A DNA stretch of 40,497 nucleotides from NCBI GenBank assembly GCA_011049595.1, contig DRHN01000450.1, positions 1 through 40,497 on the forward strand, in the 5' to 3' direction. Both the position numbers and the translations under genes were made by a program. Of the stretch, positions 27,080-31,567 are shown one piece after another. Under the pieces are notes generated by a model that ran no database searches, was not told where the DNA came from, and saw only the letters and a program-made list of their open reading frames with translations. This DNA is from Spirochaetota bacterium. Lineage in GTDB: Bacteria > Spirochaetota > B62-G9 > DRHN01. Each line of letters starts with the position of its first letter. Positions within the stretch are counted from its first letter, which is position 1.

Positions 27080-27739
27080 TTATTTAAAAATGTCCCCGGT
27101 TTCTTTGTACCAGAGCACAAAATCAAGATGGCTCAAAGGTATTTCCAGGCTTTCGGAAAACCCGGCCATTTTCTTCTCGATATTGAGATATTTTTTTCTT
27201 GACAGGCTTCCCGGGATTTCATCGATCACACAGCAGGCGTCCAGGTTCTTCAATATGTGTCTGTCCAGAATGGCGATATCGTCCCCGAAACCGATATTTC
27301 TCAAGAAATGGCCGGACTCTTTATAGCCGATACCTTTTACATTTGAGACAAACCATTCCCTTTTGTCGTACACGGAAGCATGTGCGCTGATTTTTTCTCT
27401 CAGGTTTATCCTCCCGCCCATTACAAACAGTTTTCTTGCCAGGTCTATGTATTTAGCTTTGTTGTTGCGGAAACGAACAATATTTAATTCGCCGGCGATC
27501 TGAGAAAGTGTGCCCTTAAAAAGGAGATTTTTCTGTAAAAGGTTTTTTACCGCCTTTTCGGCAGAGCGCGCCCGGGATGACGGTGTCAGAATACAAAAAA
27601 CCAGCTCCTGGAATATATCCTCATCACTGCCGTTTCTCCAAAGGGCGTTAAATTCTTCGAGCCTGTCTATGATCCGGGTTTTTATTTTTTTATATACGGC
27701 CATAATCTCTTCTATTGGAGTAAGATTTTTGCTATGCAT
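27080..27739 (-). CDS. ogg: Ogg2-type N-glycosylase/DNA lyase (8-oxoguanine repair)
   Basis: This 219-residue HhH-GPD enzyme should remove 8-oxoguanine and nick the DNA strand. The helix-hairpin-helix is VKGIGYKESGHFLRNIG, with the catalytic Lys at residue 140. The catalytic Asp is Asp159 in AILDRHILK. Length and the absence of an Fe-S cluster fit the Ogg2 branch, which is best known from archaea and scattered bacteria. The gene follows the anti-sigma-like gene by 21 bases on the same strand. This places DNA repair in the same transcription unit as the CHAT, sigma and anti-sigma genes, which hints at a damage or stress response. The 94-base gap to the convergent RpiR gene shows no clear terminator. 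Confidence 0.88.
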   Translation of the reverse strand: MHSKNLTPIEEIMAVYKKIKTRIIDRLEEFNALWRNGSDEDIFQELVFCILTPSSRARSAEKAVKNLLQKNLLFKGTLSQIAGELNIVRFRNNKAKYIDLARKLFVMGGRINLREKISAHASVYDKREWFVSNVKGIGYKESGHFLRNIGFGDDIAILDRHILKNLDACCVIDEIPGSLSRKKYLNIEKKMAGFSESLEIPLSHLDFVLWYKETGDIFK

Positions 27740-27760
27740 AATGTTATTTACTACCCCGGG

Positions 27761-28324
27761 TCATTCTACATCAAATTCTAATATCACACGCTCGCCTGCC
27801 ACGAGTGAATACTTCCCCTTTTCCAGGCCATCTATAAGCACACTCGGTTCGGTAACATGCCCATGGGCCTCTATTTTTTTGCCGTCAAGGTAAAAGAAAA
27901 AACTCTTTCCCTCGGCACGCGTAATTTCGGCACAAAATTTACCGCCTTTGTCGCCAAAGATGTCAACATTCATTACATCGGTTTTCAGCCTGTATATGAT
28001 TTTTTCTTCATCCCCTATATGCCCTAAAGTGCCTTTCAGTTCCAGAGGGACAAACAAATCCGGACCGGTTAAGTTTTTAATGATCCGGATCCCATCCTTT
28101 AACAGTTTAAAAACCGCCCTCCTGTGCATCAATCTCTCAGGAACATCCATCAGCTTCATCGAGTTCATCAGAAAAAGATCCTTCTCGAGAGCAAGGAGGG
28201 CCCCGGCGCACTCTTTACAGGCCAATATGTGCTCTGAAAACCTCTTTTCAGCCTCGTTTTCAAGAGCCCTGTCATAGTACAGGGATATATAATCCGGATC
28301 ATTAAAACGGCATTTCTTCATCAT
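27761..28324 (-). CDS. Zinc-finger anti-sigma-factor-like protein
   Basis: This 187-residue protein begins with a zf-HC2-like motif, CRFNDPDYISLYYDRAL followed by HILACKECAG, the H-x3-C-x2-C pattern of zinc-binding anti-sigma factors. No transmembrane segment is visible, so it would be a soluble anti-sigma of the ZAS type. The C-terminal half (about residues 95-187) is beta-rich with no family I recognise; it ends with a segment like a small all-beta or carbohydrate-binding fold (GKKIEAHGHVTEPSVLIDGLEKGKYSL). The start overlaps the sigma-like gene by 23 bases and has AAAGGAG. It probably holds the sigma-like protein inactive until a signal is received. Confidence 0.7.
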   Translation of the reverse strand: MMKKCRFNDPDYISLYYDRALENEAEKRFSEHILACKECAGALLALEKDLFLMNSMKLMDVPERLMHRRAVFKLLKDGIRIIKNLTGPDLFVPLELKGTLGHIGDEEKIIYRLKTDVMNVDIFGDKGGKFCAEITRAEGKSFFFYLDGKKIEAHGHVTEPSVLIDGLEKGKYSLVAGERVILEFDVE

Positions 28325-29168
28325 AGCGCTCCTTTAAAAAGTTTTGAACAGCACTCTTCGTTCGCATGATCCCGGTCGAAACCGTTCCTATTGGAAATCC
28401 CAAGAATTGCGAAAGACTCTCATAGGAAGGAGTTAATTTCACTCTTTTATATTCATCTAACACTTTATTCCTTTTTTTCTTTAATTTTTCCACCTCTATC
28501 TTATTATTTTCTTCCTGACTTTTTAATATGCCATAATAGAGATCGTTCAATCTCTGGAACAGCTTATTTTTGAGCCTGTATTTTTCCAGCATTGTGTTCC
28601 TGATCACGCTGATCCCGTTAAGAGATTCACGAAAGGATTTATCAAGATAAATAGATATAAAACTGATATCTTCAGGTCTTATGGTCTCGATAAAATACAG
28701 GTGAAAAAATAATCTATGTTTTTCCTTTAAATCTATTATTATTTCATTAATAAGCCTGTCAAACTTTAAAAATTCCCCGTAGTTTTTACCGTCACCGATA
28801 AAATTGTGCAGGCTTTGATTACTTTCATAGCCGTAATCAAATGAAACCGCCCCGCCCTGCTCTTCGACCCTGTTTTTCAGCTTTTTCCCTCTGACAAAAT
28901 TGAGGTACCTGTTCCTCAGAACGACGGTAAACCATGTGATAAATTTAACATCTGTTTCCCTGTATCCATTTAGTATGGCTTTCATTCTGGTAAGAACATA
29001 CTCAAAAAAATCCCCGCAGGTATCCACGCTCATGCCGAAAGCTACACGGGGGTAATTATATATAAAGTTGGACAGCATTTCGATCAAAAGGGTATAGCTT
29101 TTTTCATCACCCTTTTTATACAGTTTTACAGCCTCTTTGATCCTGCTGTCAGGCGGTCGACTTTTCAT
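28302..29168 (-). CDS. Sigma-70-like (ECF-type) factor with a long linker
   Basis: This 288-residue protein has a sigma region 2-like N-terminus (about residues 25-95, ending FITWFTVVLRNRYLNFVRGKK) and a sigma region 4-like C-terminus (about 235-285; SYESLSQFLGFPIGTVSTGIMRTKSAVQNFL). Between them lie about 140 residues, including a charged helical stretch (EENNKIEVEKLKKKRNKVLDE). Ordinary ECF factors have only a short linker and are about 180-200 residues, so this is a larger variant. Overlaps with the CHAT gene upstream (20 bases) and the anti-sigma-like gene downstream (23 bases) show tight coupling of the three. It probably directs RNA polymerase to a small stress regulon. Target promoters are unknown. 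Confidence 0.72.
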   Translation of the reverse strand: MKSRPPDSRIKEAVKLYKKGDEKSYTLLIEMLSNFIYNYPRVAFGMSVDTCGDFFEYVLTRMKAILNGYRETDVKFITWFTVVLRNRYLNFVRGKKLKNRVEEQGGAVSFDYGYESNQSLHNFIGDGKNYGEFLKFDRLINEIIIDLKEKHRLFFHLYFIETIRPEDISFISIYLDKSFRESLNGISVIRNTMLEKYRLKNKLFQRLNDLYYGILKSQEENNKIEVEKLKKKRNKVLDEYKRVKLTPSYESLSQFLGFPIGTVSTGIMRTKSAVQNFLKERYDEEMPF

Positions 29169-30513
29169 ATATTAACCGGCTTTCTCCAAATAATGAAAAT
29201 GCGAGGGGTACAGGGTTTTTTCCTGTGTATGATTCACACATAGCCCTGTTGAACGCGTACCCGATCTCGCAATTATTTATCAGCAGCTCGTAGAAACAAA
29301 GAACAAAATCGGTGACGCCTCCATCCGTGATCTTCCATCTTGATGAAACAACATTTTTCACACCCGCTTTAAGAAAACTCGACGCAAGCTTCAAAGTATT
29401 TCCGCAGGAGCATGAAAAGACCAGATGAGGGCATCGCTTTGCGCCCGCAATATCCAGGGCAGTAAAATGAGACTCTCCGAGGTCCCAGGCGGGTGACGAG
29501 TCATCCGGACTGCTGTGTCCGGAAAAATGTACTATGTCGTACTGTGAAAACCAATCGACCAGCCTGTCCTTTAGCCGGTCCCTTGAATAAAAATCAACAG
29601 ATATCCCCATTGCTGAAAAAAAATCATACAGCTTCAGCCCCTCATCATAAGCACCGCTGAAACTGCCTGAAGGGTCAGCAATGATAAGAACTCTTTTGAC
29701 CCTCGCAGTTTCGTGTCTTTTTCCTTCATCCCCTCGAAAAGCAAGAAAATTATTTTCAAAAATAAAAGCCCCGTCATAGGAAATTTCGAAAGGTATATCA
29801 TTTACCCTTGCATCCCCCGCTATGTATATACTGAATCCGCCTCTTGTAAACACTTTTTCAAGCCCTGTACCCCTGAATACGGCATCATAAACCAATCGGC
29901 CGATATCCTTCAGCGATTCTGTGTAATTTTCCATGTTCGAGGTCTGTAACAGGTTTTCCCCTATTTTCATTTTTCGCTCCAGCACAGACCGGAAATTTGC
30001 GGTCAACTTGAAGGTAAAATCTGAAAATTGGGTCCCCCTGTTGATCTCGATCACAGTTGCCCTGCCATCGTCACCTGAAAATGATATGTTTATGATCAGG
30101 GGGATTTTCTCGTTATTTACTTTATTGAGCTCTTCAAAAAATATGCTCTCATCTTTTTTCTTTAAAAAAAATGTATCCTCGCCCTTCTTAAATCCGGCAA
30201 AACGGAAAGGCAAACCCTTTTCAAAGACCTGTGAACAGTCCACCCGGGTACTTATGTAGTGATAATGGCTGCCGGTTTTCCCATATCCATTAAACGGCCC
30301 GGATTTCGGATTTTTCTCTTCATTCACGTCTTCCGAGCTTTTGATAAAAGGCCCGGCTATTTTCATGTTTTCAAAATCATAAAGAAATACAATGTCCCCT
30401 TTTCTCAGCTGGTAGATATTAAAACGTTCAATCAGGCTGCGCGGGATGCGGATCAAACCTGTCTTGAGGGTTTTAACAAGGTTGTTCTCATCAGTGTGTA
30501 TCAGATAGGCCAT
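29149..30513 (-). CDS. CHAT-domain (caspase-like) protease with an N-terminal DCD-like domain
   Basis: In this 454-residue protein the C-terminal CHAT peptidase (about residues 270-450) has the His in DIVHFSGHSSPDD (His333) and the Cys in HLVFSCSCGNTLK (Cys368 or Cys370), followed by VVSSRWKITDGGVTDF. The N-terminal 110 or so residues (GLIRIPRSLI, LRKGDIVFLYDFENMKIAGPF, then RFAGF) resemble the DCD/EVE-like fold seen in stress proteins. That is my reading of the pattern, not a verified match. The middle (about 150-265) is unassigned. It starts 14 bases after tsaB and overlaps the sigma-like gene by 20 bases. A likely role is cleaving a regulator such as the anti-sigma-like protein when triggered. 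Confidence 0.78.
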   Translation of the reverse strand: MAYLIHTDENNLVKTLKTGLIRIPRSLIERFNIYQLRKGDIVFLYDFENMKIAGPFIKSSEDVNEEKNPKSGPFNGYGKTGSHYHYISTRVDCSQVFEKGLPFRFAGFKKGEDTFFLKKKDESIFFEELNKVNNEKIPLIINISFSGDDGRATVIEINRGTQFSDFTFKLTANFRSVLERKMKIGENLLQTSNMENYTESLKDIGRLVYDAVFRGTGLEKVFTRGGFSIYIAGDARVNDIPFEISYDGAFIFENNFLAFRGDEGKRHETARVKRVLIIADPSGSFSGAYDEGLKLYDFFSAMGISVDFYSRDRLKDRLVDWFSQYDIVHFSGHSSPDDSSPAWDLGESHFTALDIAGAKRCPHLVFSCSCGNTLKLASSFLKAGVKNVVSSRWKITDGGVTDFVLCFYELLINNCEIGYAFNRAMCESYTGKNPVPLAFSLFGESRLIYEKSTA

Positions 30514-30527
30514 GGTTCCGTCAAAAT

Positions 30528-31157
30528 CTAAATTCCCCGTAAGTATAAGGGTTTTAAATACTTTTTTTCAGGCTTCAACCCGCAGGTTTCAGCAAGCCGG
30601 TACGCGTTTCGCGCGCTTGGATAGGCAAATACCGTTTTTATTTTAATATCAGTGTCATCCCGGATCATAATGCTCCTGTGATCTTTTTCCGATGATATAA
30701 GACATTCGGGGGCATTCTCTTTAATAAATGAAAAAAAATCTTCCCTGTTCAATGCAAGATAATCAGTTACGCTTTCCCCTTCTCTGTAGCAGGCAGTATA
30801 GACTTCCTGTCTTCCGGATCTTATGAACGGGATGGCCGAATTATAACATTTTCTTATTGCAAATGCAAGAAGGTCAAGTGAAGGTATACCGAGTATCGGA
30901 ATCCCCCGGACCTGACACATTGTGTTTGCAAAAGACAGACCTATACGTATTCCTGTAAAAGACCCCGGACCCATTCCGGCGTATATTTGTGTTATATCAC
31001 TTACCGGCCTGTTAATACTTTTCAACAAAAAATCAACAGCGTTGACTATATTCTGGGAGTGAGTTACATCATGCAGAAGTTCCAGACTGGCAATTTCGGC
31101 ATCCTGGAATATGGAAACGGAAAATGCTTTTGTGGAAGTTTCAATAGAAAGAATCAA
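30528..31157 (-). CDS. tsaB: tRNA threonylcarbamoyladenosine biosynthesis protein TsaB
   Basis: This 209-residue ASKHA-fold protein is the partner of TsaD in forming the t6A37 modification of ANN-decoding tRNAs. It starts MILSIETSTKAFSVSI and has the family signature GPGSFTGIRIGLSFAN near residues 63-78. Length is close to the family norm of about 230. It overlaps tsaE by 4 bases, the usual bacterial pairing. The gene is followed by the CHAT gene after 14 bases, so the housekeeping transcript appears to continue into the stress genes. No tsaD is in the window. Confidence 0.93.
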   Translation of the reverse strand: MILSIETSTKAFSVSIFQDAEIASLELLHDVTHSQNIVNAVDFLLKSINRPVSDITQIYAGMGPGSFTGIRIGLSFANTMCQVRGIPILGIPSLDLLAFAIRKCYNSAIPFIRSGRQEVYTACYREGESVTDYLALNREDFFSFIKENAPECLISSEKDHRSIMIRDDTDIKIKTVFAYPSARNAYRLAETCGLKPEKKYLKPLYLRGI

Positions 31158-31567
31158 AATTCTTTCCTTTCAATCGAAATAGACCTGCATTCCTCATGGA
31201 TTCTGAATGAAATAATGATAAACCTGTTCAGTTTTTCTGCCATTTTCTCACCCCATTCTATGACCGTTACTCCCTCTTCGCTGTATAGATAATCCTCGAG
31301 AAGATCGTCCATCTCGGATATATTTTCGATCCTGTAAAAATCAAAGTGATAAAGATCCAGGCTGCCCTTATATATGTTCATAATTGAAAAAGAGGGGCTT
31401 GTCACATTTTCCCCGATATCGAGCGATCCGGCGATCCCCTTCGTAAACACGGTTTTCCCGCATCCCAGACCGCCGGTGAGCAGTACAACTTCTCCGCCTT
31501 TTAAAGTCTTTCCGAGATCCGATCCGTAATTGATCGTATCCATAAATGATTTTGATATATATTCCAT
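31154..31567 (-). CDS. tsaE: tRNA threonylcarbamoyladenosine biosynthesis ATPase TsaE
   Basis: This 137-residue P-loop ATPase regulates the TsaB-TsaD complex in t6A synthesis. The Walker A motif is LTGGLGCGKTVFTKGIA near residues 30-46, followed by VTSPSFSIMNIY and the LYHFDFYRI segment. The Walker-B-like VTVIEWGEKM occurs near residue 100. Length is normal. It lies 86 bases after the YihY gene and overlaps tsaB by 4 bases, which implies coupled translation. Confidence 0.93.
   Translation of the reverse strand: MEYISKSFMDTINYGSDLGKTLKGGEVVLLTGGLGCGKTVFTKGIAGSLDIGENVTSPSFSIMNIYKGSLDLYHFDFYRIENISEMDDLLEDYLYSEEGVTVIEWGEKMAEKLNRFIIISFRIHEECRSISIERKEF

Follow-up and report, generated by a model that had tools for sequence, protein, structure and literature searches.

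A CHAT-family protein, a long ECF-like sigma factor and a soluble anti-sigma protein encoded together in Spirochaetota: a candidate proteolytic sigma switch

The window analysed here is a stretch of 40,497 nucleotides from a Spirochaetota bacterium (assembly GCA_011049595.1, contig DRHN01000450.1, forward strand). Between positions 27080 and 30513, its minus strand carries open reading frames for a predicted protease of the CHAT family (CHAT), a sigma-70/extracytoplasmic function (ECF)-like factor (SIG), a soluble zinc-finger anti-sigma protein (ZAS) and an Ogg2-type 8-oxoguanine glycosylase/lyase (Ogg2; gene OGG). A preliminary description, made from the letters of the window, had placed these four genes here in one unit, with overlapping frames for the first three and the glycosylase following. 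All four frames exist and each is confirmed by a profile match. Overlaps are found between CHAT and SIG (20 bp) and between SIG and ZAS (23 bp); OGG, in contrast, adjoins the trio across a gap of 21 bp. On the other side, CHAT is separated from tsaB by 14 bp, and the full run reads tsaE-tsaB-CHAT-SIG-ZAS-OGG. The features of the locus are:

29149-30513, minus strand: CHAT protease gene (predicted), 454 amino acids (PF12770; AlphaFold2 model; Foldseek matches to separase and Csx29)
30109-30513, minus strand: CHAT N-terminal domain, residues 1-135, most likely EVE/DCD-like (PUA superfamily), candidate sensor (Foldseek; subthreshold Pfam matches)
29215-29904, minus strand: CHAT domain, residues 204-433 (Pfam hmmscan)
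29515-29517, minus strand: codon of the predicted catalytic His333
29404-29406, minus strand: codon of the predicted catalytic Cys370
28302-29168, minus strand: SIG, sigma-70/ECF-like factor, 288 amino acids (TIGR02937)
28854-29126, minus strand: SIG region 2, about residues 15-105 (alignment and NCBIfam match)
28326-28433, minus strand: SIG region 4 helix-turn-helix, about residues 246-281 (NCBIfam matches at ~248-280; conserved GTVSxGIxRMK)
27761-28324, minus strand: ZAS, putative soluble zinc-finger anti-sigma protein, 187 amino acids (PF13490)
28148-28297, minus strand: ZAS helical anti-sigma domain, residues 10-59 (AlphaFold2 model)
27767-28120, minus strand: ZAS C-terminal beta-sandwich, residues 69-186 (AlphaFold2 model; hhalign to the Leptospira-like and f10 partners described below)
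27080-27739, minus strand: Ogg2-type 8-oxoguanine glycosylase/lyase, 219 amino acids (PRK01229 and PF22175)
30528-31567, minus strand: tsaB and tsaE, housekeeping genes of N6-threonylcarbamoyladenosine (t6A) synthesis, upstream in the same run (TIGR03725, TIGR00150; order kept in 5 relatives)

The CHAT product matches Pfam family PF12770 with an E value of 2.4e-12 (47.4 bits against a cut-off of 24), a family also matched by 15 of 16 divergent homologues, and the dyad formed by His333 and Cys370 is invariant in all 16. Its AlphaFold2 model (pLDDT 88, pTM 0.84) retrieved separase (5fc2) and Csx29 (8eey) in Foldseek at E about 5e-12, followed by SAVED-CHAT and DdvA. By these features the protein is a CHAT protein and a predicted protease. 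Carriage of the gene by phages was considered and rejected, since relatives of the protein are absent from phage records.

SIG scores 47.8 bits against NCBIfam TIGR02937 (sigma70-ECF; cut-off 42.9), placing it within the ECF superfamily profile, while its match to the Pfam model of region 2 alone stays below cut-off. About 100 extra residues, a feature common across the phylum, lie between regions 2 and 4, so that the protein, at 288 residues, departs from the format of regions 2 and 4 only in about 170-200 amino acids. The match to a type III-E sigma model is weak. Within the phylum, 93/149 and 195/393 genomes encode SIG relatives, and a search of named genomes with a narrow alignment returned six named loci, all in Spirochaetota metagenome-assembled genomes. 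Profile evidence thus identifies SIG as an ECF-like, atypically long, sigma factor.

The match of ZAS to PF13490 (zf-HC2) lies just above threshold (22.8 bits against 22.2). Candidate zinc ligands C5, H32, C36 and C39 are found in and just before the helical domain, forming an H-x3-C-x2-C motif with a further Cys, and there is a weak match to RsrA. In the AlphaFold2 model, the helical anti-sigma domain is joined to the beta-sandwich by a low-confidence linker (residues ~60-68); a structure search with the C-terminal domain gave weak Ig/CnaB-like matches, none of them significant. No transmembrane segment was found (maximum KD19 1.04), in agreement with the earlier view of the protein as soluble. 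These features make ZAS a ZAS-type protein, with a putative role in sigma inhibition.

To describe how the locus is conserved, families of Spirochaetota are denoted by numbers, f1 being the source organism's own family, f2 its sister family, f5 the Leptospira-like family and f10 an AT-rich family. The order CHAT-SIG-ZAS is present in four of them: f1, f2, f4 and f13. In f1 and f2 the entire six-gene order from tsaE to OGG is kept wherever contigs reach far enough. In f4 and f13 the trio is found without tsaB or OGG, between unrelated flanks, and with CHAT proteins that are about 20% identical. The Leptospira-like genomes show a different arrangement, SIG-X-CHAT, in all six cases where both genes lie on one contig; protein X lacks the zinc ligands of ZAS and shares its C-terminal domain (hhalign P 1.8e-5, probability 78%). 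In f10 the pair formed by SIG and an anti-sigma gene persists (hhalign 93%), again without zinc ligands, and a CHAT protein with a similar N-terminal domain is encoded elsewhere in the genome.

Co-occurrence was scored in 393 genomes, applying a cut-off of E < 1e-15 to both the CHAT and the SIG searches. Every genome with CHAT also had SIG (83/83); 34 had SIG only, 276 had neither, and the CHAT-only class was empty. When families were counted instead, both genes were present in 16, SIG alone in 11, CHAT alone in 0 and neither in 32 (Fisher p about 1e-7). Because gene order is kept down to about 20% protein identity and co-occurrence is this strong, the association of the trio exceeds what chance would give. 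These comparisons leave little doubt in our minds that CHAT, the sigma factor and the anti-sigma protein constitute a real functional module, as far as sequence can tell. The expectation that the gene order would be conserved is thus borne out for CHAT-SIG-ZAS, in four families, and fails for the four-gene order including OGG, which is confined to f1 and f2.

The N-terminal third of CHAT (residues 1-135), absent from the preliminary description, is an extra domain. Foldseek aligned the CHAT model with the EVE-domain structures 1wmm, 2hd9 and 2p5d (probability 1.00, TMt 0.58-0.60, about 150 columns); since the output carries no query range, the placement of these matches at the N-terminus rests on Pfam hits. 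The latter are subthreshold matches within the first 80 residues, to DCD in 5 of 16 CHAT homologues and to EVE in one. A scan of 149 genomes with the DCD model gave nine matches, seven of which were CHAT N-terminal domains. A sequence search of the PDB with a profile of the domain returned nothing useful. The predicted model displays an EVE/PUA-like fold, and the domain is most likely EVE/DCD-like, of the PUA type. EVE and DCD domains are regarded as modified-base readers. The text of a 2020 survey of prokaryotic EVE/DCD proteins mentions neither CHAT nor Spirochaetes (PMC7641849).

We envisage the following switch. ZAS would be a cytoplasmic anti-sigma protein holding the ECF-like SIG in an inactive state. 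The N-terminal EVE/DCD-like domain of CHAT most likely binds a signal of the nucleic-acid or nucleotide type. Once activated, CHAT would cut ZAS, most probably within the linker that joins the sigma-binding helices to the beta-sandwich, or else inside the sandwich; in the structural model, the stretch at about residues 60-68 could be the cleavage site. Cutting would free SIG and turn on a stress regulon. Here we infer the proteolytic activity, ZAS as the substrate, the ligand of the sensor and the regulon. By analogy with characterized systems, we lean, on balance, towards release of SIG through CHAT cleavage of the anti-sigma protein. A functional circuit of the three proteins had been suggested earlier, with damage as the trigger: the conserved linkage, the 83/83 co-occurrence, the retained dyad and the soluble anti-sigma protein agree with the circuit; the trigger does not fare as well, nothing specific pointing to DNA damage.

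Several observations weigh against the switch as drawn. In f10, f17 and f30 the CHAT and sigma genes are not neighbours. The 34 genomes with SIG and no clear CHAT comprise 11 CHAT-less families as well as some members of CHAT-containing families; the sigma factor can therefore function without CHAT or with an unrecognised partner. Shared ancestry partly inflates the co-occurrence counts; a functional tie can be argued in spite of it, given the lack of any CHAT-only genome and the altered gene order in Leptospira-like genomes. As to the sensor, curated Pfam cut-offs are not reached even by the best homologues (DCD 17.8 against 27.8 bits, EVE 19 against 23 bits), and profile-profile comparison of the N-terminal domain with bacterial EVE is weak (15.8%). 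Moreover, N-terminal domains vary by lineage, with CHAT proteins of f5, f17 and f30 carrying a C-terminal extension instead, and this makes one common signal unlikely.

Among alternative explanations, the one that survives best, though we consider it unlikely, gives the sensing role to ZAS itself, as a zinc-thiol redox switch of the RsrA or ChrR kind that would release sigma upon oxidation. CHAT would then not be the activator but belong to the regulon as a target or effector, such as a protease for cell death or clean-up. The four candidate ligands and the RsrA match fit such a role, and so do the oxidative-stress genes in the run, Ogg2 and the rubrerythrin found in genomes G003 and G004. However, the anti-sigma partners of f5 and f10 have lost the ligands while CHAT and its dyad are kept; therefore zinc redox cannot be the release route throughout the group. 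The position of CHAT, upstream of the sigma gene and overlapping it, is also that expected of a stoichiometric regulator.

A second alternative, which we think has a small chance of being right, is that CHAT cleaves SIG itself, or both partners, so as to shut off or tune the response. Known CHAT and Lon precedents target the inhibitor, and in f5, as at locus L119, CHAT instead comes straight after the gene for the anti-sigma-like protein. Still, the long stretch separating regions 2 and 4, which is non-canonical, offers a possible cleavage region, the CHAT and sigma frames overlap, and 34 genomes keep the sigma factor without CHAT. Alternatively, the genes could merely share an operon and lack any direct link in mechanism, their order reflecting slow rearrangement among related genomes. 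In f1 and f2 synteny does extend beyond the trio to rseP, DUF3108, PilZ, YihY, tsaE and tsaB. Against this idea, which we judge very unlikely, f4, f13 and f5 keep CHAT beside sigma or anti-sigma genes in other surroundings, and also in a different order; the block from tsaE to OGG is found as a unit in a different context in G004; and f10 and f30 genomes in which the two genes are unlinked retain both. Finally, a stand-alone or degraded type III effector module of the CRISPR (clustered regularly interspaced short palindromic repeats) kind, Craspase-like and recruited from defence, is highly improbable given the absence of PADLOC hits for the four proteins, the absence of Cas10 from G000, G002, G003 and G006, the housekeeping flanks, the single copy and the phylum-wide inheritance, in spite of the weak SIG match to the type III-E sigma model, the fold match to Csx29 and SAVED-CHAT, and the CHAT-sigma clusters with CRISPR-like features in G009 and G023 (see below).

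Ogg2 is unambiguous as a protein, scoring 223.7 bits against the PRK01229 equivalog model (cut-off 183). Its gene adjoins the trio in f1 and f2 loci whose contigs reach far enough, and elsewhere is not beside CHAT-SIG-ZAS. We thus regard Ogg2 as probably an operon neighbour rather than a core component, and dismissed the notion that it is a general core part of a DNA-damage circuit; the view of the four genes as one unit does not hold outside these two families, which belong to the same order. A damage signal for the switch is speculative. So is the idea of oxidative damage, which derives from the neighbours Ogg2 and rubrerythrin in two families. Replacement of the SOS response was considered and rejected too: no LexA was found in the source organism's own genome (89%-complete), but its close relatives G002-G004 and most CHAT-containing genomes have LexA, and there is no trend.

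Some features of the surroundings were recorded as well. A rubrerythrin/ferritin-like gene lies between ZAS and OGG in G003 and G004 (L033, 5959-6459; L034, 977-1513). In G004 the block, which has another location there, reads tsaE-tsaB-CHAT-SIG-ZAS-rubrerythrin-OGG, and a caspase gene (PF00656) is found directly upstream of tsaE (L033, 10448-11494). The t6A genes tsaE-tsaB precede CHAT in all f1 and f2 loci, a curious position beside a putative modified-base reader.

Secondary CHAT genes beside sigma and/or anti-sigma genes were found at six other loci of the phylum (L081, L098, L119, L120, L121 and L122). At L081 (G010), L119 (G079) and L120 (G155) a second CHAT is next to a canonical ECF sigma gene and a small non-zinc partner; at L121 it accompanies an ECF sigma gene and a borderline zf-HC2 protein. 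Locus L122 (G023, contig C10, 2749-5273) encodes a 576-residue CHAT protein that matches a Card1-type CARF model below threshold; its gene is divergent from one for a sigma-70 ECF factor, possibly a sigma switch gated by cyclic oligoadenylate. At L098 (G009, contig C42; 4623-6158 and 15342-19351), a TPR-CHAT gene is divergent from a sigma and zf-HC2 anti-sigma pair, and within about 10 kb of it lies a CRISPR cluster of type III (Cmr-like) that includes cas10. Several other secondary CHAT genes that were sampled (e.g., L123-L130) have no sigma neighbour.

The arrangement extends to Leptospira itself. The f5 CHAT matches that of Leptospira interrogans at 57%, and in this species X and then CHAT lie directly downstream of the sigma gene (WP_001054050.1). 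The latter is listed under the name LIC_10225, with a length of 301 amino acids, among "unclassified" ECF factors (PMC12655853). LIC_10225 is the orthologue of the window SIG, belongs with it to one long ECF family and is likewise encoded next to CHAT and an anti-sigma-like protein; unlike the window, the L. interrogans module has a CHAT without the EVE/DCD-like domain, an X without zinc ligands and the order SIG-X-CHAT. The L. interrogans CHAT homologue (L131, NZ_CP092665.1, 5001-6212) is shorter (403 amino acids). The record that contains it is called a plasmid yet holds dnaE and thiD, and the homologue has no gene entry in the PLSDB table.

Protease-gated release of sigma factors, by CHAT or SAVED-Lon enzymes, was previously known from type III CRISPR systems. 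If the switch proposed here is real, a version inherited throughout a phylum would make it a general regulatory device, possibly borrowed by CRISPR. It would also suggest, for LIC_10225, a partner and a route of activation that can be tested, and provide a possible modified-base reader linked to a bacterial protease of the caspase/separase type. Carried further, the trio could be an ancestral, CRISPR-independent stress system of Spirochaetota, in which CHAT, with an EVE/DCD domain that reads modifications or damage in nucleic acid, or else free modified nucleosides, directly cleaves the anti-sigma protein and releases the long, previously unclassified ECF sigma factor, the CHAT-sigma cascades of type III CRISPR being relatives or borrowings; this we put forward as a tentative and rather doubtful extension.

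Control of a sigma factor by a CHAT enzyme, which the preliminary description had called unusual, has precedents. In type III-E CRISPR, Csx30 inhibits CASP-sigma, and cleavage of Csx30 by Csx29 frees it (PMC10028731). This Craspase module resembles that of the window in combining a separase-like CHAT protein with an inhibitor of an ECF-like sigma factor, encoded together and soluble, with no membrane protease involved. However, Csx29 contains TPRs, and its trigger is Cas7-11 target RNA, whereas the window CHAT has the EVE/DCD-like domain in place of TPRs; the inhibitor is a zf-HC2 and beta-sandwich protein rather than Csx30; and the window module is chromosomal and phylum-wide. Neither cas genes beside the locus, which has housekeeping flanks, nor PADLOC matches to its four proteins, nor Cas10 in its own genome were found, and identity with a type III-E effector was rejected on these grounds as well as for want of TPRs and Csx30. 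CalpL cleaves the anti-sigma CalpT to free the sigma factor CalpS (PMC11229360); this system shares the sensor-protease architecture and uses Lon (SAVED-Lon), not CHAT. SAVED-CHAT (8tl0) has the same protease fold as the window CHAT. In both of these the sensor is SAVED, which detects cyclic oligoadenylates of type III CRISPR. In DdvA (8rot), a CHAT domain is likewise tied to anti-sigma function, but inside a transmembrane anti-sigma chain, while the window CHAT is a separate soluble protein. RsrA/ChrR-type factors have in common with ZAS the H-x3-C-x2-C motif with an upstream Cys, an ECF-like sigma partner and solubility; ZAS adds the C-terminal beta-sandwich, weakly Ig/CnaB-like, and several lineages retain the sigma/anti-sigma pair although the zinc ligands have disappeared. 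Prokaryotic EVE/DCD proteins (PMC7641849) share the predicted PUA-like fold with the CHAT N-terminus, whose similarity to them is below curated cut-offs. A search of the open-access literature gave no report of a non-CRISPR CHAT-sigma-anti-sigma module. In conclusion, CHAT-sigma switching as such is already known; what is new is a CRISPR-independent, chromosomal and phylum-wide variant with a different sensor.

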